Below are positions 10,395 through 61,159 of a DNA stretch of 64,000 nt, piece by piece (position 1 is the stretch's first letter; the number at the start of each line of letters is the position of its first letter). Under the pieces are notes generated by a model that had not been told where the DNA came from, did no database searches, and worked only from the letters and a program-made list of their open reading frames with translations. Where the stretch lies: NCBI RefSeq assembly GCF_901827155.1, contig NZ_LR594660.1, forward strand, positions 124,001 through 188,000, read 5' to 3'. The position numbers and the translations under genes are program-made. This DNA comes from Variovorax sp. PBL-H6 (GTDB taxonomy: Bacteria; Pseudomonadota; Gammaproteobacteria; Burkholderiales; Burkholderiaceae_C).

Positions 10395-10823
10395 ATGACG
10401 TACAAGCAATCACCACCCCCCGAGCCACTCGAGCCCGCGGAACGAACGAAGGCCTTTCGAAGCCGCTTGGCGGAGAGCAGCTTCCGCCGAGTCGAGGGCT
10501 ATATCGCCAGCGACGAAAAGGAGCGCGTGGACCGCGTCCGCCAAGAGCTGCAGGTGACCTCCGACGTTGCGGTCGCAGGCCTTGTTCGGCTGGGGCTGAG
10601 CGCCTACGAAAGCGCAATGCGCCAGGGACCTGGCGCGAGCCTTCAGACAACTTCTTCCGACTGGCTCGCCGCATCTGGCGGTGTGCAGGGCGCATGCGCC
10701 CATTCGGCCCAGGCCAACTTCCCGACCACCCCCAGCGCGGCCTCTCCTGAGCTCGTGCACACCCCCGCCAACCCCATCGCTCAATTCTTCAAATCGCGCA
10801 AGGAGACTCACCGTGCTCAATAA
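10395..10823 (+). CDS. Possible ribbon-helix-helix regulator
   Basis: The 142-residue protein carries a region (SFRRVEGYIASDEKERVDRV, then TSDVAVAGLVRLGLSAYE; residues about 28-75) that resembles a ribbon-helix-helix or similar small DNA-binding fold, followed by an Ala/Ser/Thr/Pro-rich tail. A perfect palindrome lies just upstream, consistent with autoregulation. Its stop overlaps the GTG start of the vWA gene, so the two form an operon. Other assignments are possible because the match is structural rather than motif-exact. Confidence 0.5.
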   Translation: MTYKQSPPPEPLEPAERTKAFRSRLAESSFRRVEGYIASDEKERVDRVRQELQVTSDVAVAGLVRLGLSAYESAMRQGPGASLQTTSSDWLAASGGVQGACAHSAQANFPTTPSAASPELVHTPANPIAQFFKSRKETHRAQ

Positions 10824-11613
10824 CCCCCGCCTCGGCCCCCTGGTACTGCCCTACCTTGGCCTCACCGTCCAGTCCCATGTCCGGCCCACCCTCCCGGCCT
10901 TCGAGTTACCTGCCGCCATCCAGCGCCTGCTCGCGCGTTCGATTGAAGACTGTCGCGCCGAGCGTTCCCGGCCCGCCGTTGGCGAACAAACCACACATGC
11001 GGCGCTGCTCCTCGACGAGTCCTGGTCGATGAACCGCCACCGCGCAGCTGCCTTGGCTGGCTACAACCACCAGGTCGGCGTCATCAAGGAAGGCGCCAAG
11101 GAGGCCGGAAAGACACTGGTCACGCTGAACGTGTTCAGCAGCACGCCGCGGGAAGTCCTGAGCGCGGCGCCGACGGAGCAACTGAGTCCGCTGCCCGAGG
11201 AAGAGTACACGCCCACCGGCGGCACCGCCCTCTACGACGCCATCGGGGACACCATCGCCTCGCTCCTGGCCCGCCCGGACGCTGATTCGCCGTCGACTGC
11301 GTTCCTCGTGGCACCGTTCACCGATGGCGAGGACACCTCGTCGTACCGCTACCCTCCGCAGCTGCTGCGCGAACTCGTCGCCAAGCTCGAGGCCACAGGC
11401 CGCTGGACGTTCACCCTGGTGGGCCCCACCGGCCAGGTGGACGAGTTTGCCGCTGCCCTGAACCTCCAGGCGGGCAACATCAAGGCCTACGATGCGACCA
11501 AAACCGAATCGGTGACCTCCGCATTCACGGAGATGGCAGGGGCCAGTACACGCTACATGGCGATGCGCTCTGCCGGGGTTATGGCCTCCGCCTCGCTCTA
11601 CGCCGGCCGATAG
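10813..11613 (+). CDS. von Willebrand factor A (vWA) domain protein
   Basis: The start is the GTG preceded by AGGAG; it overlaps the upstream gene by 11 bases. The 266-residue product is mostly one vWA domain with an intact MIDAS metal site: DESWS (DxSxS) near residue 71, the TGGTALYDAIGD Thr loop near 138, and FTDGEDTSS (Asp) near 175. There is no signal peptide, so it is cytoplasmic. vWA proteins usually mediate metal-dependent protein contacts. Here the partner is unknown; a second vWA protein (36930-37655) and the PP2C/kinase pair are candidates by analogy with TerY-type triads. Confidence 0.85.
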   Translation: MLNNPRLGPLVLPYLGLTVQSHVRPTLPAFELPAAIQRLLARSIEDCRAERSRPAVGEQTTHAALLLDESWSMNRHRAAALAGYNHQVGVIKEGAKEAGKTLVTLNVFSSTPREVLSAAPTEQLSPLPEEEYTPTGGTALYDAIGDTIASLLARPDADSPSTAFLVAPFTDGEDTSSYRYPPQLLRELVAKLEATGRWTFTLVGPTGQVDEFAAALNLQAGNIKAYDATKTESVTSAFTEMAGASTRYMAMRSAGVMASASLYAGR

Positions 11614-35095: not shown

Positions 35096-35770
35096 TCAGG
35101 ACAGCAGTGCCCGCTCGACGGTCGAAAGCTTGTGGCGGAACTTGCGCTTCAGGCGGTAGATTTGCGCGGGCCGCTGCGAGATGACCTCGGTCTTGGCGCC
35201 AGGAATCTCTTCCACCAGGTCGAGCTCGTCCACCTTTCGGCGAAAGCTCACCTTGTTCAGTGTCTTGCCCAGCACCGCTTCGTAAACCGACTGCAACTCA
35301 GGCAGCGTGAACTGCGGGCCGCACAGATGTGCCGGCAGCGATGAGTAGATGCTCTTGCTGCGCACGCGCTTGACGGCCGCCGCAACAATGTCATTGTGGT
35401 CAAAGGGCAGGTCTTTGACGGCGCTGACGGGCAACACCTGCATTCCCGCCTGGTCGGCGGCTTCCAAAACCTCCAGCGGCATCAGCGCGTAGTAGACGAT
35501 GGAGACGGACCATCCGCGAGGGTCGCGCTCCGCGCCCGAGAATGTCGCCAACTGCTCGAGGTAGGGGCTCGTGACCCCGGTCTTGGCCTTGAGAACGCGC
35601 AGCGCCGCATCAAACGCTGTGTTGTCTTCGTCGGCATGGATATAGCCCCCGGGCAGGGCGTAGCTGCCGGCGAAGGGCTCTTTGTCCCGCTTGAAGAGCG
35701 CGACGTGGAGCTTGTGCTCCTTCAGGGTCAGTAGCACGACGTCGACCGTGCAGATGACAGTTTGAAACAT
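35096..35770 (-). CDS. nrtR: NrtR, Nudix-related regulator of NAD metabolism
   Basis: The start is the ATG of MFQTVICTVDVV; 224 residues. The N-terminal 145 residues are a Nudix-like effector domain in which the Nudix box (GGYIHADEDNTAFDAALRVLKAKTG) has lost the REXXEE glutamates, as in non-catalytic NrtR proteins. The C-terminal 80 residues are a winged HTH (FTLPELQSVYEAVLGK, VSFRRKVDELDLV). NrtR is known to repress NAD biosynthesis or salvage genes and to respond to ADP-ribose. An operator covers its own -10 box, and pncA is divergently transcribed. Confidence 0.9.
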   Translation of the reverse strand: MFQTVICTVDVVLLTLKEHKLHVALFKRDKEPFAGSYALPGGYIHADEDNTAFDAALRVLKAKTGVTSPYLEQLATFSGAERDPRGWSVSIVYYALMPLEVLEAADQAGMQVLPVSAVKDLPFDHNDIVAAAVKRVRSKSIYSSLPAHLCGPQFTLPELQSVYEAVLGKTLNKVSFRRKVDELDLVEEIPGAKTEVISQRPAQIYRLKRKFRHKLSTVERALLS

Positions 35771-35819: not shown

Positions 35820-35842
35820 GTTAGTATCATTATAGAACTAAC
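35820..35842. promoter_or_regulatory. NrtR-like operator A over the nrtR promoter
   Basis: Inverted repeat GTTAGT...ACTAAC (23 bases). Read on the minus strand it contains TATAAT, with TTGCCC 18 bases upstream, so binding would block nrtR transcription (autorepression). Confidence 0.8.
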
Positions 35843-35930: not shown

Positions 35931-35964
35931 GTTAGTTGCACGGAGAAACTAACGATGCTATACT
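35931..35964 (+). promoter_or_regulatory. NrtR-like operator B and pncA promoter
   Basis: GTTAGTT(9)AACTAAC at 35931-35953 lies directly upstream of a TATACT -10 box at 35959-35964, 31 bases before the pncA start. Confidence 0.82.
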
Positions 35965-35994: not shown

Positions 35995-36867
35995 ATGAAG
36001 CACAACATCCACCTTCTCGTCATCGACCCGCAAAACGACTTCTGCGACCTGCCGTCCGCCTACCTGCCCGCGGACCCACTGAAGCCTGGCGAGGTCCTCC
36101 GGCCGCAACTCGCCGTCCCCGGCGCGCACGCTGACATGCTGAGACTGACCGAGCTCCTGAATCGCGGTCTGCGCGGCCTCTCGGATATCTCCGTCACGCT
36201 GGACTCCCATCACCGTGTGGGCATCGAGCGCCCGGCCATGTGGATGAAGGGTGACGGTTCGCCCGTTGACCCGTTCACCCAAATCACCGCCGCCCAGGTG
36301 CGAGCTGGCGCCTATCTGCCGCGCCACCCGAAGGCCACGGACCGCGTGCTGGCCTACCTGGACGCGCTCGAGGCGGGTGGCCGCTACGTCCACATGGTTT
36401 GGACGCCACACTGCGAAATCGGAACCTGGGGGCACAACGTGCACGCCGATGTGCGCGCCGCCTACGTCGCATGGGAGGAGGCGTTCCTCGGCATCGTAAA
36501 CAAGGTGACCAAGGGCTCGAACCCCTGGACCGAGCACTACAGCGCGGTCATGGCCGAGGTTCCGGCGGCCGACGACCCCACCACGCAGCTCAATCGCGGC
36601 CTCATCGACATCCTGGCCCAGGCCGACATAGTGCTCATTGCCGGCGAGGCGGGCAGCCACTGCGTCAAGGCCACGACCGAGCACATTGCCGACAACTTCG
36701 GCGCCGACAGTCTCAGCAAGCTGGTGCTCCTGACCGACTGCATCTCGCCGGTAGGTGGGTTCGAAGCCCAGTACCAGTCGTTCCTGGCGGACATGACCGC
36801 TCGCGGCCTGCGTACGGCGACGTCGACCGACGTGCTGGGCGAACTCGTGGCCAACGGGCGCAAGTAA
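35995..36867 (+). CDS. pncA: Nicotinamidase (PncA-type cysteine hydrolase)
   Basis: 290 residues, longer than the usual 200-220. The catalytic triad of the family is visible: Asp in LLVIDPQNDFC near residue 10, Lys in VNKVTKGSNPW, and Cys in GEAGSHCVKATTEHI. TLDSHH supplies the metal-binding Asp/His cluster. It converts nicotinamide to nicotinate, the first step of the Preiss-Handler salvage route; PncB (59921-61159) does the next. GGAG upstream of the ATG; the promoter is under an NrtR-like operator. The isochorismatase superfamily is wide, but the regulatory context supports PncA. Confidence 0.88.
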   Translation: MKHNIHLLVIDPQNDFCDLPSAYLPADPLKPGEVLRPQLAVPGAHADMLRLTELLNRGLRGLSDISVTLDSHHRVGIERPAMWMKGDGSPVDPFTQITAAQVRAGAYLPRHPKATDRVLAYLDALEAGGRYVHMVWTPHCEIGTWGHNVHADVRAAYVAWEEAFLGIVNKVTKGSNPWTEHYSAVMAEVPAADDPTTQLNRGLIDILAQADIVLIAGEAGSHCVKATTEHIADNFGADSLSKLVLLTDCISPVGGFEAQYQSFLADMTARGLRTATSTDVLGELVANGRK

Positions 36868-36929: not shown

Positions 36930-37655
36930 ATGAAACTCGTTGATGACACCATGACGCTCGGCAGCGTCTCCGGCTTTGCGTTCTCCGCCGTCCGTCCAGA
37001 GACGCTCGGCTCGACGGAGTACACCCTTGTGACCGTCGTGATGGACAAGACCGGCTCGGTTTCCTCGTTCGCGGACGAGTTGAACAAGCTCAAAGTCACG
37101 GTGGTCGGTGCTTGCAGAAAGAGCCCTCGTGCCGAGTTCCTCCTGCTGCGCGTCGTCGAATTCAATCGCAGCGTCGACGAGGTGCACGGGTTCCTGCCTC
37201 TGAATCAGGTGGATGTGGCCTCGTACGTGGCCCCAACCTGCGAGGGGCTGACCGCCTTGGCCGACGCCACCTTTGCCGCGGTAAGTGCAACCAACGCCTA
37301 CGCCAAGACGCTGGCCCAGCAGGACTACCTGGTCAACGGCATCGTCTTCATCGGCACCGACGGCGTCGACAACGATAGTCGCATGCGGCCAGCGGACATC
37401 CAGAAGGAGATTGTGGGTGCGTTGAAGGGCGAGCACATCGAATCGCTGCGCACCGTCCTGATTGGCATCAACGCCGCCCAATACGCCCGCGAGCTCCAGG
37501 CCTTCCAGGTCGAAGCGGGCATCGACCAGTACGTCGACTTGGCGGATGCAACGCCACAACGCCTGGCCAAGCTCGCGGACTTTGTCAGCCGCTCCATCTC
37601 CGCGCAGTCCCAATCCCTTGGCACTGGCGGTCCCAGCCAAGCTCTCGTCTTCTGA
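36930..37655 (+). CDS. vWA domain protein, TerY-like
   Basis: 241 residues, one vWA domain. The MIDAS motif is a variant, VVMDKTGSVSSF (DxTGS rather than DxSxS); the second Asp lies in FIGTDGVDNDS. Cytoplasmic. vWA proteins of similar size (TerY) occur with a PP2C phosphatase and a kinase in Ter-associated systems, and those two partners are encoded at 57216-59760. It lies 60 bases after pncA and may be read through from it, but TCTAGACC at about 36908 could be its own promoter. AAAGGATTCCC precedes the ATG. Confidence 0.78.
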   Translation: MKLVDDTMTLGSVSGFAFSAVRPETLGSTEYTLVTVVMDKTGSVSSFADELNKLKVTVVGACRKSPRAEFLLLRVVEFNRSVDEVHGFLPLNQVDVASYVAPTCEGLTALADATFAAVSATNAYAKTLAQQDYLVNGIVFIGTDGVDNDSRMRPADIQKEIVGALKGEHIESLRTVLIGINAAQYARELQAFQVEAGIDQYVDLADATPQRLAKLADFVSRSISAQSQSLGTGGPSQALVF

Positions 37656-38376: not shown

Positions 38377-38865
38377 ATGCACATCATCTTTGCACAGCAG
38401 CCCCTCGAAAAATCCATCTTCCTCGCGGGCCCCACGCCGCGCGATGCCGCCACGAAGTCCTGGCGCCCGCAAGCGCTGGAGATTCTTCGGGGTCTGGACT
38501 TCGACGGGAAGGTCTTCGTCCCCGAGACGGTTGGAGGCGGGCTTCCTCCCAACACGTATGACCCGCAGGTGCAGTGGGAATGGCAGGCCCTAAATCAGGC
38601 CACAGTGGTCGTGTTCTGGGTGCCCCGTGACGTCGCAACCCTGCCTGGCTTCACGACTAACACCGAATTCGGCTTGCTGGCGGCGTCGTCAAAGTTGCTG
38701 CTGGGCTTTCCTGGAGACGCGCAGAAGATGCGCTACCTTGACCGCCTGGCACAGCGCTACCACATCCCCGTACACGCCGACCTGGCCGAGCTGCTGGAGG
38801 CGGCGGTCGAGAAGACGAAGAACCCTTACCCCTTCAACGGGGCCGGCGCAGAGCTGGCCTTCTAG
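38377..38865 (+). CDS. Nucleoside 2-deoxyribosyltransferase-like protein
   Basis: 162 residues. SIFLAGPTPRDA at the N-terminus, WEWQALNQATVVVFWVPRD in the centre and GFTTNTEFGLLAA match the Nuc_deoxyrib_tr-like family (glycosidic-bond enzymes of the DUF4406/RCL-like clan). The catalytic Glu of the clan is probably the one in TNTEFG. It would act on (deoxy)nucleosides or nucleotides, possibly including NAD-derived ribosides. It is 57 bases after the HD gene. Confidence 0.8.
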   Translation: MHIIFAQQPLEKSIFLAGPTPRDAATKSWRPQALEILRGLDFDGKVFVPETVGGGLPPNTYDPQVQWEWQALNQATVVVFWVPRDVATLPGFTTNTEFGLLAASSKLLLGFPGDAQKMRYLDRLAQRYHIPVHADLAELLEAAVEKTKNPYPFNGAGAELAF

Positions 38866-38913: not shown

Positions 38914-39771
38914 ATGACGACCCTGGCCCTCTTCAGCAAGCCCAACAACCCCCACGCATGGGGTGTTCTCAACGAAATCGTCTCCTGGGCGCAGCTCAAG
39001 GGCCTACGGGTTCTGGTGGGGCCCGACAAGGGCGGATGGGACGGCAAGAACTGGAGTTCTGAGCTCATCGAGTCGGCCAGGCAGGAGGCGGACATTGCCA
39101 TTGCCATCGGCGGGGACGGCACCCTGCTCGGGGTGGCTCGCAACCTCTTCGGCTGGGGCAAACCCATTCTTGGCGTCAACCTTGGAACCCTCGGCTTCCT
39201 CACCGACGTTGCTGCCAAGGACATTGAACGGATGCTGGATGCTATCCAGGCCGGCGAGTACACGGTCGAGGACCGCATTCTTCTGGAGGCAGGGCTGGAC
39301 GGCGAAGAGTCGAGGGGGCTTGCCTTCAACGACGTCGTGTTCACAAACGGCGGCTTCGGCCGGCTCGCTCAGTTCGACGTCTTCGTGGACGAGCAGCCCG
39401 TCTTCTCCCTGCGTGCGGACGGGCTCATCATCACGACGCCCACCGGCTCGACCGCCTACGCCCTGTCGGCCAACGGGCCCATCCTGCACCCCTCCTTGGC
39501 AGCCATCGCCCTGGTGCCACTGAACCCACATTCGTTGACCGCAAGGCCCATCTCGCTTCCGAGCTCGGTGAAGGTCGAAGTCGTTGTGCGAGGGACGGTG
39601 GAGTCGAGGGTGGTCTGCGACGGGCAGCCATACGGCGGGCCGCTCACGGACGGAACGCGGGTCCACGTCTCGCAGGGTGCGACCACCGTGAAGATGCTGC
39701 ACCTGAAGGACTACAACCTGTTCAAGACGCTTCAGCAAAAGCTGAACTGGAGCTCGCCGCGCGAGCGTTGA
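38914..39771 (+). CDS. nadK: NAD kinase
   Basis: 285 residues, normal length. AIGGDGTLLGVAR contains the invariant GGDGT, LGTLGFLTDV and TPTGSTAYALSANGP are the NAD-binding segments, and the NDVVF..GG loop (NE/D motif region) is present. It phosphorylates NAD to NADP with ATP or polyphosphate. Chromosomal nadK is essential in bacteria, so this is most likely an extra copy. It ends a plus-strand run beginning at pncA. Confidence 0.93.
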   Translation: MTTLALFSKPNNPHAWGVLNEIVSWAQLKGLRVLVGPDKGGWDGKNWSSELIESARQEADIAIAIGGDGTLLGVARNLFGWGKPILGVNLGTLGFLTDVAAKDIERMLDAIQAGEYTVEDRILLEAGLDGEESRGLAFNDVVFTNGGFGRLAQFDVFVDEQPVFSLRADGLIITTPTGSTAYALSANGPILHPSLAAIALVPLNPHSLTARPISLPSSVKVEVVVRGTVESRVVCDGQPYGGPLTDGTRVHVSQGATTVKMLHLKDYNLFKTLQQKLNWSSPRER

Positions 39772-56178: not shown

Positions 56179-57093
56179 ATGGGACGTGAACTCAAGCGAG
56201 TCGCACTGGACTTCAAGTGGCCGCTGGAAAAGGTCTGGAAGGGCTTCCTGAATCCGTTCAGCAAGCATGCCCGACCGTGCCGGCAATGCGGCGGGCGAGG
56301 CGAATCGCCGCAGCTCACCGAGCTGCATAACCAGTGGTACGGCTACTCGGCCTTTCGACCGGAGGACAGAGGCAGCAGGCCCTGGACGACCGAAGACGCG
56401 CCCATCATCGCGTTCGCGTCGAGGAACCTGGAGAGCGCACCCGGGTTCTACGGTCAAGGGCCCGTCGCACTGAATCGTGAGGCGCAACGGCTGTGCGACC
56501 TGTTCAATCAGCAGTGGAGCCACCACCTCAACGACGACGACGTCGCAGCTCTGCTGGAGGCTGACCGCCTCTGGGACTTCACTTCCACGTTCAGCCCCGG
56601 CGACGGTTGGGTGAAGAAAGAGCCGGCGGTCGTGCCCACTGCGGCGCAAGTCAACGCGTGGAGCATCGGAGGCATGGGGCACGACAGTATCAACTCCTGG
56701 GCTGTTATCAGAGCCGAATGCAAGCGGTTGGGCCACCCGATGTCGTGCAGCGCGTGTGAAGGCGAGTGTCAAATCTGGCGCACCAACCGGCTGAGGAAAA
56801 AGGCCGAGAAGTGGACTAAGGTGGAGCCTCCGGCAGGGTTGGGCTACCAGATTTGGGAGCACACCACCGAAGGCAGCCCCATTTCCCCGGTGTTCGCGAC
56901 TGCCAAGGAACTCGCTGCCTGGATGGTCACGGAGTATCGGCATCGCCGTGATGAAGGCAATTTCACCTCGTGGATGAAGTTCATCGAGGGACCGGGATGG
57001 GTGCCGTCGGGGGTCATCGGGGGTGGCAGGCTCTTCCACGGAGCCAACATCGTGCGCGCTTTCGAAGAAGAGCAGGAACCTGCAATCGCGTAG
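56179..57093 (+). CDS. Hypothetical protein with two Cys-rich zinc motifs
   Basis: 304 residues from the ATG after AAAGGAACTTCC. Two DnaJ-like zinc knuckles, CRQCGGRGE (near residue 34) and CSACEGEC (near 195), are separated by 150 residues and probably bind one zinc each or together. The region in between is helical and Trp-rich. Proteins of this kind occur, as I recall, on large phages, without known function. No promoter is obvious. Confidence 0.6.
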   Translation: MGRELKRVALDFKWPLEKVWKGFLNPFSKHARPCRQCGGRGESPQLTELHNQWYGYSAFRPEDRGSRPWTTEDAPIIAFASRNLESAPGFYGQGPVALNREAQRLCDLFNQQWSHHLNDDDVAALLEADRLWDFTSTFSPGDGWVKKEPAVVPTAAQVNAWSIGGMGHDSINSWAVIRAECKRLGHPMSCSACEGECQIWRTNRLRKKAEKWTKVEPPAGLGYQIWEHTTEGSPISPVFATAKELAAWMVTEYRHRRDEGNFTSWMKFIEGPGWVPSGVIGGGRLFHGANIVRAFEEEQEPAIA

Positions 57094-57154
57094 CACAGCG
57101 TTAATTCGGGCCGCCAGGGATGAATCAATCCTTGGTGGCCTTTTCCTGCGGTTC

Positions 57155-57190
57155 GATAGTTGCACCAAGCAACGAACGAAGCTACACTGA
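57155..57190 (+). promoter_or_regulatory. NrtR-like operator C upstream of the PP2C/kinase operon
   Basis: GATAGTTGC-ACCAA-GCAACGAACG (57155-57178) followed by the -10-like TACACT. Compared with operator B and its -10 (35931-35968), GTTGCAC, AACGA, and CACTGAGC/TACTGAGC agree at the same spacing; operator D is even closer. Confidence 0.7.
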
Positions 57191-57215
57191 GCATCGCAAG
57201 CAAAAGGGGTTGAGC

Positions 57216-58040
57216 ATGCACACAGACCATGCCGTGTTGACAGGGAGCAGCCATACCGCAGCGGCGACGGCGTGCCAGGACTATTGCCTTGCGGGCTCGG
57301 CCGAAGGAGTCGCATGGGCAGTGGTCGCGGATGGGTGCTCTAGTGGAGGGGCCTCGGACCTCGGCGCCCGTGTCTGGGCGCTTGCCGCACGACGCGTCCT
57401 CATTCGCGCTGCGGGGGAGCTGCTGCCCGCCTACGAGCTGCAGCGCCGCGTGCTTGAGAGGGCGGAGCCCCTATTGGCCAACCTCAGCACAGAGGACGGC
57501 TTTTCGACGCTCGGCGTACTCCAAAGCGATGGTGCACTTGTGCGCTGCTGCCTGTTCGGGGACGGAGTCGTCATCGCCCGACACAGGGACGGAGGCCTAT
57601 CCGTCTGGTCGGTCGAATACTCTGCGAATGCCCCGTTCTACCTTCAGTACCTCCGAGACCCTGCCCTGGAGACTGCCTACGACGAGCAATACAGGGACCA
57701 GCTGCGGAACTGCGTACGTACCAGGCTCGATGCCAACGGCGGCGTCCTGGGCAGCGACGTTTGTGCTCAGAGCTCGCAGGCGCCGGCTTGGGAGCTCACC
57801 CTGGACGTGAAGCGCCAGGACCTGGATGCCGTCTTTGTGTGCAGTGACGGGCTCGGCACGACCAAGGAAGGCCTTGAGGCAACGGCTGCCGCGGTGGCCG
57901 CAGTGAAGAACTCCACAGGGGAGTTCGTGCGTAGGCGGGTGGCCAAGCTTGCTCGAGACTGGCTGAAGGCGGGGGGCATGCCGACAGATGACCTCGCGGT
58001 CGCCGGCATCTGGCTTGACCGGGAGCCGGGCGATGAGTGA
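57216..58040 (+). CDS. PP2C-type protein serine/threonine phosphatase
   Basis: 274 residues. Metal-binding Asp residues are in the expected motifs: QDYC, VVADGCSSGGASDLGA, FGDGVVIA, FVCSDGLG and TDDLAVAGIW. It therefore looks like an active metal-dependent phosphatase. Its partner is the kinase next door, whose ATG overlaps its stop. The operon is preceded by an NrtR-like operator, a connection I have not seen described. Confidence 0.9.
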   Translation: MHTDHAVLTGSSHTAAATACQDYCLAGSAEGVAWAVVADGCSSGGASDLGARVWALAARRVLIRAAGELLPAYELQRRVLERAEPLLANLSTEDGFSTLGVLQSDGALVRCCLFGDGVVIARHRDGGLSVWSVEYSANAPFYLQYLRDPALETAYDEQYRDQLRNCVRTRLDANGGVLGSDVCAQSSQAPAWELTLDVKRQDLDAVFVCSDGLGTTKEGLEATAAAVAAVKNSTGEFVRRRVAKLARDWLKAGGMPTDDLAVAGIWLDREPGDE

Positions 58041-59760
58041 GCGCGTCACCGTCTACCCGGAAGGAGGCCGAAGCCTTGTGTTGACGGGAAACGACCACCT
58101 TGCCACCGGTGGCGAAGGTTCGGTCTACGTCAAGGGGGACACGGCGTACAAGGTCTACCTGGAGCCGGCCAAAGCAATCCGGGCGGGCATGGAGCGCAAG
58201 GTCGCCGCCCTGGCGGCCATCAAGCACCCCGGCATCGCCGCTCCGCAAGCCATCCTTCGAGACAAGAATGGACTTTTCATTGGGCTGTCGCTGCCGAAGG
58301 CGCCCGGAGAAGCCCTTTACAAGGCATTCACGAACAGCTGGAGGGACACCCATCAGTTTGGCCTTACCGAGACGGCGAAGGTTGTAGAGGCCATGCGAGG
58401 CATCACCATCGCCGCTCATGACCACCAGGCCTTGATGGTCGACGCCAACGAGATGAACTGGCTCGTCCACGGGTTGCTGCCAACGGCAATCGATGTGGAC
58501 TCCTGGCAGCTGCCTGGCTTCCCTGCCACGGCAATCATGCCCTCCATCCGCGACTATTCCCAGAACGAGTTTTCCGAAGGCAGTGACTGGTTTGCCTGGG
58601 CCGTGGTCACGTTTCAGCTGTGGACCGGCATTCATCCCTACAAGGGTACCCACCCGGACTTCAGTCGCGGGGCGCTCGAGGAGCGTATGCGGTCGCGCGC
58701 GTCCCTCTTTGACAGCAAGGTTCGCCTACCGCCCGCAGCGAGGCTCGTGGCGGGCATCCCGCCCGCCTTGCGCGCTTGGTACGAACTCACCTTCGCTACC
58801 GGAGAGCGCTCGGAACCGCCGTCAACCTTTGCGAGCACGCTTGCGACACAGACCGCGCCGCGGCTGCGCGTCCGGCAGACGCTCGCAGGCTCCTTGAAGC
58901 TGGAGCGCCTTGGCCACGCTGGCGACAAGATTCTGGCCGCCTTCAACGGCTTTGTCGTCGCGCGTGGCCCCTCGGGCCTGGTGCTTTGGGATGCGCTCGC
59001 CAAGTCGCCCGTAGCTGATGTCACTGAAGGCGAGCTGCAAGAAGTCCTTCGGCACGAGGCCGCCATCGTCAGGACGGCTGGTTACCGGGTCGTGTTACGG
59101 CTCCGGCCAGGGGTGTCGCTTTCCTGTCGCGCGCTCGGCGGGCCGTCGGGCAGCAACCTCCCCTCGACCGCTCTACGAGTCTGGCAGTCCGGGAATCGCG
59201 TGTTCGCGCTTGCGCCTGGCGTGTCGAACGGTCTGGTCGAGGTTGACGCCGCTGAGCTGGGCGGGCGCCTGGTGCTGGCTGTGCGCCAGCAATGGCCGGC
59301 AGCCATCCTCTCGACATCGTTTTTCCGAGGAGGCTTCGTGCAAGACTGCCTGGGCATGCCTTTCGTGGGGGTGCTTGAAGGGGACGGCGTGCTGCAGGGG
59401 CCGGCCGAGGGCCTGAAGGGCTACAAGGTCGCCGAAGGGTTTGGCCTTGACCGGTCGAATGTCTGGCTTACGGCTGTCCGCCGCGTCGACGGTGAGACCG
59501 TCCGACTGTCCCTTGCGTTCAAGGCCGGGCGGTGGGCGGTTGAAGAGGTGGTGGTTGTTGCGACGCTGGGGGTTGACGCGGCGGCCAGCTCCTCGGGTGT
59601 CGGGGTGCTGCGCGAGGAGGACGCTCTCGTTGTTGCCAAAGGGGCGGCCCGCAAGCAGATTGACAGGAGTGGGTTGGCCGGCGAGCTGCGGCTCTTCTCG
59701 CTCGGCGCCGGTATAGGAGCTTTCGAGGACGGCGAGGTGATGAAGCTCAGCTTGAGCTAG
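58033..59760 (+). CDS. Protein kinase-like protein with long C-terminal domain
   Basis: 575 residues. N-terminal kinase fold: Gly-rich loop ATGGEGSVYVKGD, invariant Lys in YKVYLEP, a catalytic loop region HDHQALMVDANEMNWLV (Asp then Asn) and VDSWQ in the position of DFG. The usual kinase HRD is replaced, as in TerY-linked and other divergent kinases. The last 290 residues are strand-rich (repeats such as VLALRQ... and DGVLQGPAEG) and may form a beta-propeller or sensor domain. Co-translated with PP2C, so likely an opposing pair. Confidence 0.83.
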   Translation: MSERVTVYPEGGRSLVLTGNDHLATGGEGSVYVKGDTAYKVYLEPAKAIRAGMERKVAALAAIKHPGIAAPQAILRDKNGLFIGLSLPKAPGEALYKAFTNSWRDTHQFGLTETAKVVEAMRGITIAAHDHQALMVDANEMNWLVHGLLPTAIDVDSWQLPGFPATAIMPSIRDYSQNEFSEGSDWFAWAVVTFQLWTGIHPYKGTHPDFSRGALEERMRSRASLFDSKVRLPPAARLVAGIPPALRAWYELTFATGERSEPPSTFASTLATQTAPRLRVRQTLAGSLKLERLGHAGDKILAAFNGFVVARGPSGLVLWDALAKSPVADVTEGELQEVLRHEAAIVRTAGYRVVLRLRPGVSLSCRALGGPSGSNLPSTALRVWQSGNRVFALAPGVSNGLVEVDAAELGGRLVLAVRQQWPAAILSTSFFRGGFVQDCLGMPFVGVLEGDGVLQGPAEGLKGYKVAEGFGLDRSNVWLTAVRRVDGETVRLSLAFKAGRWAVEEVVVVATLGVDAAASSSGVGVLREEDALVVAKGAARKQIDRSGLAGELRLFSLGAGIGAFEDGEVMKLSLS

Positions 59761-59843
59761 TTCGGCAGGATGCATGTAGGCGTCACCTCGATGCACGCAC
59801 AGCATGGTGAGGAAGAGAACGACAGGCGCGGCCTCGCCTCTTT

Positions 59844-59878
59844 CGTTAGTTGCGCGGCGCAACGAACGGTGCTATACT
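59844..59878 (+). promoter_or_regulatory. NrtR-like operator D and pncB promoter
   Basis: CGTTAGTTGC-GCGGC-GCAACGAACG (59844-59868) directly before TATACT at 59873-59878. Confidence 0.82.
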
Positions 59879-59920: not shown

Positions 59921-61159
59921 ATGACCGCTTTCACCGCAACCCAGGCCTCCGCAAGAGAGCCCTTCGTTCCTGTCATCCGCTCCCTGCTGGAAACCGACCT
60001 CTACAAGTTCTCGATGTTGCAGGCGATGCTCCATCGGCACCCTGGTGCACACGCGGAGTATGCGTTTGTCTGTCGAAACAAACCGCAGTTTCCGCTGGCA
60101 GAGCTCGAGGCGGAGGTGAACGAGCAGTTGGACGACCTGTGCACCCTGCGCTTCAGTGAAGACGAACTGACCTATCTGCGCGGCCTGCGGTACATCAAAT
60201 CGGACTTTGTCGACTTCCTTGCGCTGTTCCACTTTCAGCGCAAGTTCATCAAGGTTTCCGTGAGCGGGGATGCCCTGAACATTGTCGCGACGGGACCTCA
60301 GGTTCACGTCATGATGTTTGAGATTTTCGTGCTCGCCATCGTCAACGAGCTTTACTTCCGCAATGTCGACCAAGCTCTCGCGCTAGAAGAAGGCCGCGCG
60401 CGCCTCGCCGAGAAGATTGCAATGCTCAAGGCCTTCGGCAAGGAGGCGCCACGGCGCTTTCCGTTCGACCTTTCCGATTTCGGCGTGCGCCGACGCTTCT
60501 CTGGTGCATGGCAGGACGAGGTGGTCGCCACCCTCGCGCGGGAGGTCCCGGAATACTTCAAGGGCACGTCCAACGTCTACCTGGCGCGCAAGCACGGCCT
60601 GGTGCCAATCGGCACGATGGCGCACGAATACCTTCAGTCCTACCAATCGTTTGGCGTGCGCCTGCGCGACTTCCAGAAGGCCGCCCTGGAGGATTGGGTG
60701 CAGGAGTACCGCGGTGACCTCGGGATTGCGCTCACGGACGTTGTTGGCATGGACGCGTTCCTGGCGGACTTCGACCTGTACTTCGCAAAACTGTTCGACG
60801 GTCTGCGCCACGACTCAGGTGACCCGAAGGTGTGGGGCGAAAAGGCCCTGGCCCACTACGCCAAGCTGCGCGTTGACGCAGGGACCAAGCGTCTGGTGTT
60901 CTCGGATGGCCTCGACATCCCGCGTTCGCTCGACCTCTATCGCCACTTTGCCGACCGCGTGCAGGTGGGCTTCGGTGTCGGTACGAACTTGACCAACGAC
61001 ATGGGCGTCCCTGCGCTGAACATCGTCATGAAGCTCATGAGCTGCAATGGTCAGCCTACTGCCAAGCTGTCCGATTCCGCGGGGAAGACGCTGTGCAAGG
61101 ACGAGACCTTCCTGGCGTACCTCCGGCAGGTTTTCAACCACACGGCGCCCGCCGTCTGA
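59921..61159 (+). CDS. pncB: Nicotinate phosphoribosyltransferase
   Basis: The ATG at 59921 ([15 protein letters not shown]) aligns with the E. coli PncB start; 59903 is an alternative and neither has a clear Shine-Dalgarno. 412 residues, the family's normal length. [31 protein letters not shown] with the phosphoribosyl-site loop, [17 protein letters not shown] with the phosphorylated-His loop, and GLRHDSGDP are the family's strong motifs. It makes nicotinate mononucleotide from nicotinate. Together with pncA it forms the salvage branch, under NrtR-like control. Confidence 0.94.

Follow-up and report, generated by a model that had tools for sequence, protein, structure and literature searches.

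A predicted NrtR operator before a phosphatase-kinase operon on a Variovorax megaplasmid, and a related nicotinamidase cassette in huge phages

The window analysed here is a stretch of 64,000 nucleotides from Variovorax sp. PBL-H6, which corresponds to bases 124,001-188,000 of C2, the 839,194-bp plasmid contig (NZ_LR594660.1) of a 6.87-Mb genome. Within it, genes for a PP2C protein phosphatase and a protein kinase form an operon that shares the window with genes of nicotinamide adenine dinucleotide (NAD) metabolism and with a gene for a repressor of the NrtR type. A first-pass annotation had described four inverted repeats of one type in the window, one of them before the PP2C-kinase operon, and had assigned this operon to an NrtR regulon. 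All four repeats are present, with coordinates correct to within 1 base. The main features are listed below by window position and strand.

35096..35770, - strand: nrtR, Nudix and winged-helix repressor (PF21906, 3.6e-19; PF00293, 1.8e-6; NF050029, 179 bits, under its cut-off of 400)
35820..35842, no strand: NrtR-type operator over the nrtR -10 box (matrix scan, promoter position)
35931..35953, no strand: NrtR-type operator of pncA-vWA with the -35 box inside (matrix scan, promoter composite)
35995..36867, + strand: pncA-like nicotinamidase gene (residues invariant in 39 sequences; profile to solved nicotinamidases, 4.6e-18)
36930..37655, + strand: vWA protein gene, third member of the triad with PP2C and kinase (46% identity to the vWA protein of LR745208; MIDAS residues invariant in 49 sequences)
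57155..57177, no strand: NrtR-type operator of the PP2C-kinase operon (pattern search, matrix scan, promoter composite)
57160..57188, + strand: core promoter TTGCAC-17-TACACT, -35 box within the operator (composite search)
57216..58040, + strand: PP2C protein phosphatase gene (PF13672, 6.5e-14; metal-binding residues invariant in 39 sequences)
58033..59760, + strand: protein kinase gene with a predicted C-terminal beta-propeller (kinase fold, propeller-like second half; no Pfam match)
59845..59867, no strand: NrtR-type operator of pncB (pattern search, matrix scan, promoter composite)
59921..61159, + strand: pncB, nicotinate phosphoribosyltransferase gene (PF04095, PF17767; TIGR01514)

Read directly, the operators are GTTAGTATCATTATAGAACTAAC at nrtR, GTTAGTTGCACGGAGAAACTAAC at pncA, GATAGTTGCACCAAGCAACGAAC at PP2C and GTTAGTTGCGCGGCGCAACGAAC at pncB. 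A whole-genome pattern search for the repeat, which tolerated up to 3 mismatches, returned three perfect sites, namely that of pncB and two others at C2:190516 (73 bp before nadE) and C2:194233 (75 bp before nadM-Nudix). The PP2C site departed from the pattern at 1 position and the pncA site at 2, and the nrtR site was too divergent to be recovered by it. On the chromosome, the same search found no match with fewer than 2 mismatches; the sole match with 2 falls within overlapping open frames, and we regard no chromosomal target of NrtR as convincing. The composite TTGC[AG]C-N17-TA[TC]ACT occurs exactly 5 times on the two strands of C2, before pncA, PP2C, pncB, nadE and nadM, which agrees with the earlier observation that the repeats at the first three genes are followed at the same distance by TATACT or TACACT. 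The -35 hexamer of these composite promoters lies inside the operator, and NrtR bound there would presumably obstruct RNA polymerase. The nrtR operator covers the TATAAT -10 box of nrtR's own promoter on the minus strand, as had also been reported. For the PP2C gene, the start at 57120 in the annotation of strain SRS16, 96 bases upstream, would place the operator inside the gene; this start was dropped for the ATG at 57216 on the basis of aligned homologues and an AAAGGGG ribosome site.

The six sites were then scored with a leave-one-out matrix over all 839,194 bp of C2, and each operator outranked every non-site position. With its own sequence left out of the matrix, the PP2C site scored 26.9 bits, against 10.9 for the best non-site on C2. 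Markov-random sequences of plasmid size, scanned with the matrix that lacked the PP2C site, gave maxima of 12.7-21.6 in 20 runs, all below 26.9, and scanned with the six-site matrix gave maxima of 13.2-17.9 in 10 runs. On the strength of the leave-one-out scan and these random controls, we rejected a chance palindrome at 57155. The nrtR site, when left out, scored 17.4, which is inside the random range yet above every real non-site (12.4), and the case for this operator rests on its position as well as its score. As a separate observation, the best non-site of the operator matrix on the real plasmid (about 11) was lower than every random maximum (at least 12.7).

Taken together, the presence of NrtR, the six matching operators and the five near-identical core promoters place the PP2C-kinase operon in one regulon with pncA, pncB, nadE and nadM-Nudix, and support a small plasmid NrtR regulon that comprises nrtR, pncA-vWA, PP2C-kinase, pncB, nadE and nadM-Nudix. 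NrtR control of the PP2C-kinase operon, as predicted from the DNA, is very probable. The first-pass annotation therefore holds for its four repeats and for the regulon assignment, to which the occurrence of NrtR beside related genes elsewhere (see below) adds further weight; it was incomplete in that it overlooked the vWA gene, the two further operators and the phage cassette described below. Between them, the presumed NrtR targets span the Preiss-Handler route from nicotinamide to NAD. The plasmid NrtR lacks a canonical Nudix box by a strict pattern test, which is crude because it also missed the Nudix domain of NadM. A degenerate Nudix hydrolase motif is reported for some NrtR proteins, and loss of the canonical box would be expected of a sensor. 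A chromosomal NrtR was represented by only a partial match, with 38% identity over 87 residues.

We also examined the conservation of the encoded proteins, in particular at their presumed catalytic and metal-binding residues. The nicotinamidase residues D11, D70, H72, H139, K173 and C223 are invariant in 39 sequences, and we take them to be the catalytic Asp-Lys-Cys and the metal-binding Asp and His residues of the enzyme. The pncA family profile matched solved nicotinamidases with a best value of 4.6e-18; the single plasmid PncA reached the Pfam Isochorismatase family at just E 0.05, under the cut-off. The vWA residues D39, S43, T108 and D144, which are of the type found in a metal ion-dependent adhesion site (MIDAS), are invariant in 49 sequences. 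The plasmid vWA protein has no Pfam match of its own at E 0.01, its homologue in the huge phage LR745208 has a weak match to Pfam VWA (E 0.0014, under the gathering score), and the best matches of the family profile in the PDB are vWA-bearing calcium-channel subunits (E 0.015). In the PP2C protein, D39-G40, G115-D116-G117, D211-G212 and D258-D259 are invariant in 39 sequences. The kinase residues D137, N142 and D154 are invariant in 66 sequences, and K40 is conserved in at least 90%. The kinase has no Pfam match; its structural model has a predicted local distance difference test (pLDDT) score of 90, and its N terminus matches kinases. When modelled alone, the second half of the kinase gave an all-beta, propeller-like fold (pLDDT 89) with matches to Sec12, CNH and WD40 propellers at query template-modelling scores of about 0.3-0.5, which makes it likely that this half belongs to the propeller class, with a blade count that the model does not fix. 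NCBIfam holds no model for the plasmid kinase, PP2C or vWA protein. The vWA protein and the PncA of phage locus L055 fall into PHROGs families 7371 and 19305, respectively, both of unknown function, and in PADLOC the only matches were weak ones to defence-system kinases and PP2Cs, with PD-T4-6 as the best (1.2e-5, for the kinase of locus L154).

Among close relatives, the PP2C-kinase operon turned up only in Variovorax sp. SRS16 and PBL-E5, whose megaplasmids are 100% identical to the window in the compared stretches. Because the operon and its surroundings are sequence-identical in these strains, they are uninformative on the conservation of the PP2C operator. The WDL1 plasmid retains nrtR-pncA-vWA with both operators and gave no match to PP2C, to the kinase or to the 18-kb nadE/nadM block. 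Its lack of the stretch from PP2C-kinase to nadM looks like a deletion, and WDL1 thus provides no test of site conservation. An IS1071 transposase gene (NZ_LR594690.1, 645236-648151; L054) lies a few kb from the part of the WDL1 plasmid that is shared with the window, beside heavy-metal genes.

The same genes form a cassette in huge phages. In LR745208 they occur in the order pncA, vWA, inserts, PP2C and kinase, and the products share 44% (PncA), 46% (vWA), 31% (PP2C) and 40% (kinase) identity with those of the plasmid. A scan of IMG/VR with an alignment of the kinase yielded 87 confirmed loci, of which 80 were kept and compared with the plasmid proteins as queries and flanks of up to 10 kb. 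In 77 of these 80 loci (64 of 67 clusters) the four genes shared one strand. The remaining three are L100, which sits at the end of a contig, and L069 and L082, each of which has the missing gene farther along its contig. The reverse scan, from pncA, kept 80 of 163 confirmed loci on contigs that overlap with those of the kinase scan, and it recovered vWA in 77, PP2C in 73 and the kinase in 71. The nine loci without a kinase include five that soon break off (L175, L185, L223, L226 and L232) and two in which the kinase is farther along (L163 and L196); L164 has only the C-terminal part of a kinase, and L227 has no explanation. In L164 this kinase part lies between pncA and NrtR (about 10810-11340), with vWA, PP2C and a kinase domain not found nearby, as would result from an internal deletion or an assembly fault. 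A vWA-based search for the cassette in the bacterial family was positive in 1 of 299 genomes, which is that of the window itself, and the one terminase family tried (PF03237, which bears on a phage origin of the whole plasmid) had no match in this genome.

Neighbour families were counted by clustering the open frames of 79 dereplicated loci. Apart from the core families (kinase in 75 loci, PP2C in 72, vWA in 62 and PncA in 59), the next most frequent were NrtR/Nudix (18), NadE (18), PncB (14, plus 5 for a divergent group), a NadD-like adenylyltransferase (12), NADAR (7) and Thg1 (7). NAD genes, namely those for NadE, PncB, NadD-like, Nudix/NrtR and NADAR proteins, make up most of the recurrent neighbours, and Thg1 is the sole frequent one that has no evident NAD role. 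A family of 16 loci was excluded from these counts because its representative, a minus-strand frame over the pncA and vWA genes of locus L146, was taken for antisense frames, and tblastn counts of NadM are unreliable because the Nudix half of NadM also matches NrtR. Beyond viruses, a scan for the kinase in the contigs of 84,980 species genomes found 12 loci, all on contigs of metagenome-assembled genomes. Six of these carry all four genes, with vWA in 11, PncA in 9 and PP2C in 8, and several are clipped by contig ends. Three IMG/VR cassette contigs of 110-121 kb (L058, L060 and L061), which have no NrtR match on record, may be prophages or phage-plasmids from cultured strains and, as such, potential models; we read their isolate origin from the identifiers.

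Of 95 loci, 14 encode a full-length NrtR next to the cassette. A winged helix was detected in 11 of 12 Nudix/NrtR proteins scanned; that of L128 is Nudix only, and the NrtR protein of L171 has a winged helix and no Nudix match. Over the 95 loci, duplicates included, the palindrome TT[AC]G-N13-C[TG]AA gave 22 matches, compared with 9.4 in shuffled sequences. Seven of these are in NrtR-bearing loci, and six of the seven stand at the start of nrtR or NAD genes (one each in L073 and L149, two each in L152 and L154). In L073 the operator stands before a gene of 508 residues whose product resembles nicotinate phosphoribosyltransferases of solved structure (6.9e-7; no Pfam match). This gene heads a series on the same strand that includes nadE, pncA, vWA, PP2C, kinase, NrtR and further genes. 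The operator in L149 precedes pncA-vWA-kinase-NrtR. In L171, where NrtR is followed by pncA-vWA-PP2C-kinase, ATAGTATCGAATCTGAACTAT lies between TTGACA and TATCTT; in LR745208, on whose record no NrtR was found, TTAGTTGCATTTCGTTACTAT lies between TTGACT and TATCCT; and a second operator copy in L073 has the same promoter layout as these two. A relaxed pattern had zero-mismatch matches in just 2 of 50 IMG/VR records from the loci, both before the cassette. The L171 operator had been noticed by eye before the relaxed pattern was written, so that its recovery is not independent, and the LR745208 site was already known from the matrix scan. By our grouping, NrtR-type operators thus precede gene runs that start with pncA or pncB and contain the kinase in about five distant lineages (L073, L149, L152/L154, L171 and LR745208), where L152 and L154, which are 82-86% identical, are counted once. 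A search of IMG/VR with the promoter-operator pattern returned 28 stretches. Three of them (L274, L279 and L289) belong to contigs on which the cassette had been found before; cassette genes were found in L274 and L289, and the L279 stretch is too short to show them. The plasmid operator pattern returned one stretch from IMG/VR, with no match to NAD genes.

On the plasmid the cassette is split, with vWA after pncA and PP2C-kinase about 20 kb away under its own operator. We consider it probable that these observations are best explained as a whole by an NrtR regulon, by the PP2C-kinase pair as one half, now displaced, of a mobile cassette common among huge phages, and by a phosphorylation switch tied to NAD salvage. 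Several findings weigh against this reading. The PP2C operator is alone among the plasmid sites in having GATAG for GTTAG and is followed by TACACT rather than TATACT, and because of these deviations it may be weaker. An NrtR match is present in 17 of the 50 IMG/VR records, and extends to residue 189 or beyond in 10 of them. The palindrome search found no operator at the operon start in 10 of the 14 NrtR-bearing loci, and one-mismatch matches of the relaxed pattern are about as frequent as in a reversed control. Most of the pncA upstream regions searched in 74 loci have no recognisable operator: one has a zero-mismatch site (L080) and five have a one-mismatch site, at a shuffle frequency of 0.01-0.24, in a search that relies on open-reading-frame starts and missed the visible L149 site. 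PP2C was not found in 3 of the 12 bacterial loci (L146, L149 and L156), in which vWA and kinase are present. In L149 and L156 the kinase directly follows vWA, and in L146 a gene for an ADP-ribosylglycohydrolase (1759-2829; PF03747, 1.1e-59), of a cluster with members in 4 of the 79 loci, occupies PP2C's place between vWA and kinase. The phosphatase is therefore not an obligatory part of all versions, an argument against a switch of three fixed parts. Since most phage cassettes are without NrtR and a recognisable operator, we conclude that NrtR control is a recurrent feature of certain lineages and not part of the core, and that the linkage of pncA, vWA, PP2C and kinase varies less.

For the plasmid, we infer that NrtR on the core promoters would repress all units of the regulon together. 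Anti-phage NADases release nicotinamide and ADP-ribose (PMC12774641, PMC6800001). With such cleavage of NAD, ADP-ribose would rise and NrtR would let go of the promoters. The NrtR of M. smegmatis is an auto-repressor that is released from DNA by ADP-ribose (50 mM in the assay), and in a Corynebacterium relative NAD strengthens binding instead (PMC6800001). Nicotinamide would then be converted back to NAD along the Preiss-Handler route by PncA, PncB, NadM and NadE, with the vWA/PP2C/kinase triad produced alongside these salvage enzymes. The triad would most likely act as a TerY-P-like reversible phosphorylation switch, in which the kinase propeller and the vWA protein choose the partner, and the switch would tune one step in the salvage or the use of NAD. 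More tentatively, huge phages and related megaplasmids may share an undescribed system of NAD homeostasis that consists of nicotinamidase-first Preiss-Handler salvage under the control of a vWA/PP2C/propeller-kinase switch, joined in some lineages by an NrtR that senses ADP-ribose. Nicotinamide and ADP-ribose are precisely what NADase defences set free, and such a system would therefore sense and undo NAD depletion by the host: ADP-ribose would open the promoter, nicotinamide would be the feedstock, and the kinase and phosphatase would set flux or disarm a consumer of NAD.

Two alternatives concern the operator before PP2C. The repeat at 57155 could be a chance or relic palindrome at which NrtR does not act, given that none of the other four sites with a TATACT-type promoter has diverged as far and that sequence-identical relatives give no test of its conservation. 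Two things make this highly improbable: its score of 26.9 bits, which exceeds the highest value in 20 random sequences of plasmid size (21.6) and the best non-site on the real plasmid (10.9), and a -35, spacer and -10 geometry that is the same as at the other sites. It is only slightly less improbable that PP2C and the kinase are expressed mainly by read-through, with the operator of little effect: the gene upstream is codirectional, with its end near 57093, but a terminator-like hairpin with a T run, read by eye, stands before the operator and is followed by a complete promoter.

Two others concern what the triad does. It could be, under NrtR control, a TerY-P-like module of defence or stress response that has no direct part in NAD metabolism, responds to ADP-ribose only as an alarm signal and is carried along with NAD genes, since such modules have been described as antiphage systems (PMC11090510), the weak PADLOC matches noted above point to defence systems, and co-regulation does not prove a shared pathway. 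The linkage with pncA in both directions (77 of 80 and 71 of 80 loci), the predominance of NAD genes among recurrent neighbours and the frequency of the cassette in phages themselves argue against such a module, and we consider it unlikely. A counter-defence device, in which the kinase and phosphatase would act on a host NADase or another immune effector and PncA to NadE would refill NAD, fits the carriers, which are huge phages and the plasmid, and the products of NADases, which would be both feedstock and presumed inducer (PMC12774641, PMC6800001), and NADAR genes recur nearby in 7 of 79 loci. However, the bacterial host of the plasmid would gain nothing obvious by disarming its own defence, and the proposal has no known effector as its target; we hold it to be a real but minority possibility.

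Like other bacterial NrtR regulons, the one predicted for the plasmid has a Nudix and winged-helix repressor, 23-bp palindromic operators, autoregulation and NAD targets, and the operator of M. smegmatis is a 23-bp palindrome of the form GTTTTCGA-N7-TCGAAAAC (PMC6800001). It differs in its location on a megaplasmid and in its inclusion of vWA, PP2C and kinase genes, where the accessible text of PMC6800001 names NAD operons and, rarely, xylose and arabinose genes as targets. As in TerY-P triads, vWA, PP2C and kinase are a genetic unit in phage loci and have intact active-site residues; unlike in these, as far as PMC11090510 describes them, the cassette kinase ends in a predicted beta-propeller and not in a zinc ribbon or an oligonucleotide/oligosaccharide-binding (OB) fold. 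The partners of the cassette triad are also distinct, being a nicotinamidase and NAD synthesis, and on the plasmid the triad spans two transcription units. The ADP-ribosylglycohydrolase systems with Nudix/WYL regulators share an NrtR-like Nudix regulator, phosphatases and a vWA neighbourhood with the cassette, and are a possible relative because of the glycohydrolase between vWA and kinase in L146; they differ in being predicted host systems around the glycohydrolase, with phosphatases that act on ADP-ribose products and not on proteins, and the text available of PMC9503650 mentions no nicotinamidase in them. The E. coli kinase YegI and the PP2C phosphatase PphC (YegK) are likewise encoded by adjacent genes, and YegI is dephosphorylated by PphC; according to PMC13232886, YegI is membrane-bound and is not known to have an inducing condition, whereas the cassette kinase has a propeller, a vWA protein as partner and a promoter linked to NAD.

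Phage NAD reconstitution, by Adps/Namat of NARP1 and by NadV, NadM and NadR of jumbo phages, is a further case in which mobile elements restore NAD from nicotinamide (PMC12774641, PMC7824862, PMC9503650). By these descriptions, the cassette is set apart by Preiss-Handler enzymes (PncA, PncB, NadD-like/NadM, NadE), by the kinase/phosphatase triad and sometimes by NrtR; the words PncA, PncB, NadE and NadD are absent from the main text of PMC9503650. In titles and abstracts of the open-licence literature, among the matches listed, we found no report of this cassette or of an NrtR regulon that includes a kinase or phosphatase, in line with the first-pass view that NrtR control of such a pair is undescribed. 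The shared control on the plasmid and the conserved cassette in phages suggest a link between NAD supply and protein phosphorylation that is new to the literature searched. If true, it would connect the level of NAD or ADP-ribose to reversible protein phosphorylation in bacteria and phages, would place in a functional setting three proteins (kinase, phosphatase and vWA) that are poorly covered by NCBIfam, PADLOC and PHROGs, and would predict a phage route of NAD reconstitution that is distinct from NARP1 and from the NadV/NadM/NadR set.

Further genes and signals lie around the regulon. On the plasmid, pncA-vWA is followed in the same direction by two more genes:

38377..38865, + strand: nucleoside 2-deoxyribosyltransferase-like gene downstream of vWA (PF15891)
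38914..39771, + strand: NAD kinase gene (PF01513, PF20143)

Outside the window, a NADAR gene (C2:189935-190453) stands directly before the nadE operator, and the nadM leader between operator and gene (C2:194260-194290) contains AAGGCCTGCGCAGGCCTT and then GCGCTTTTT, which by eye resemble a terminator- or attenuator-like hairpin.

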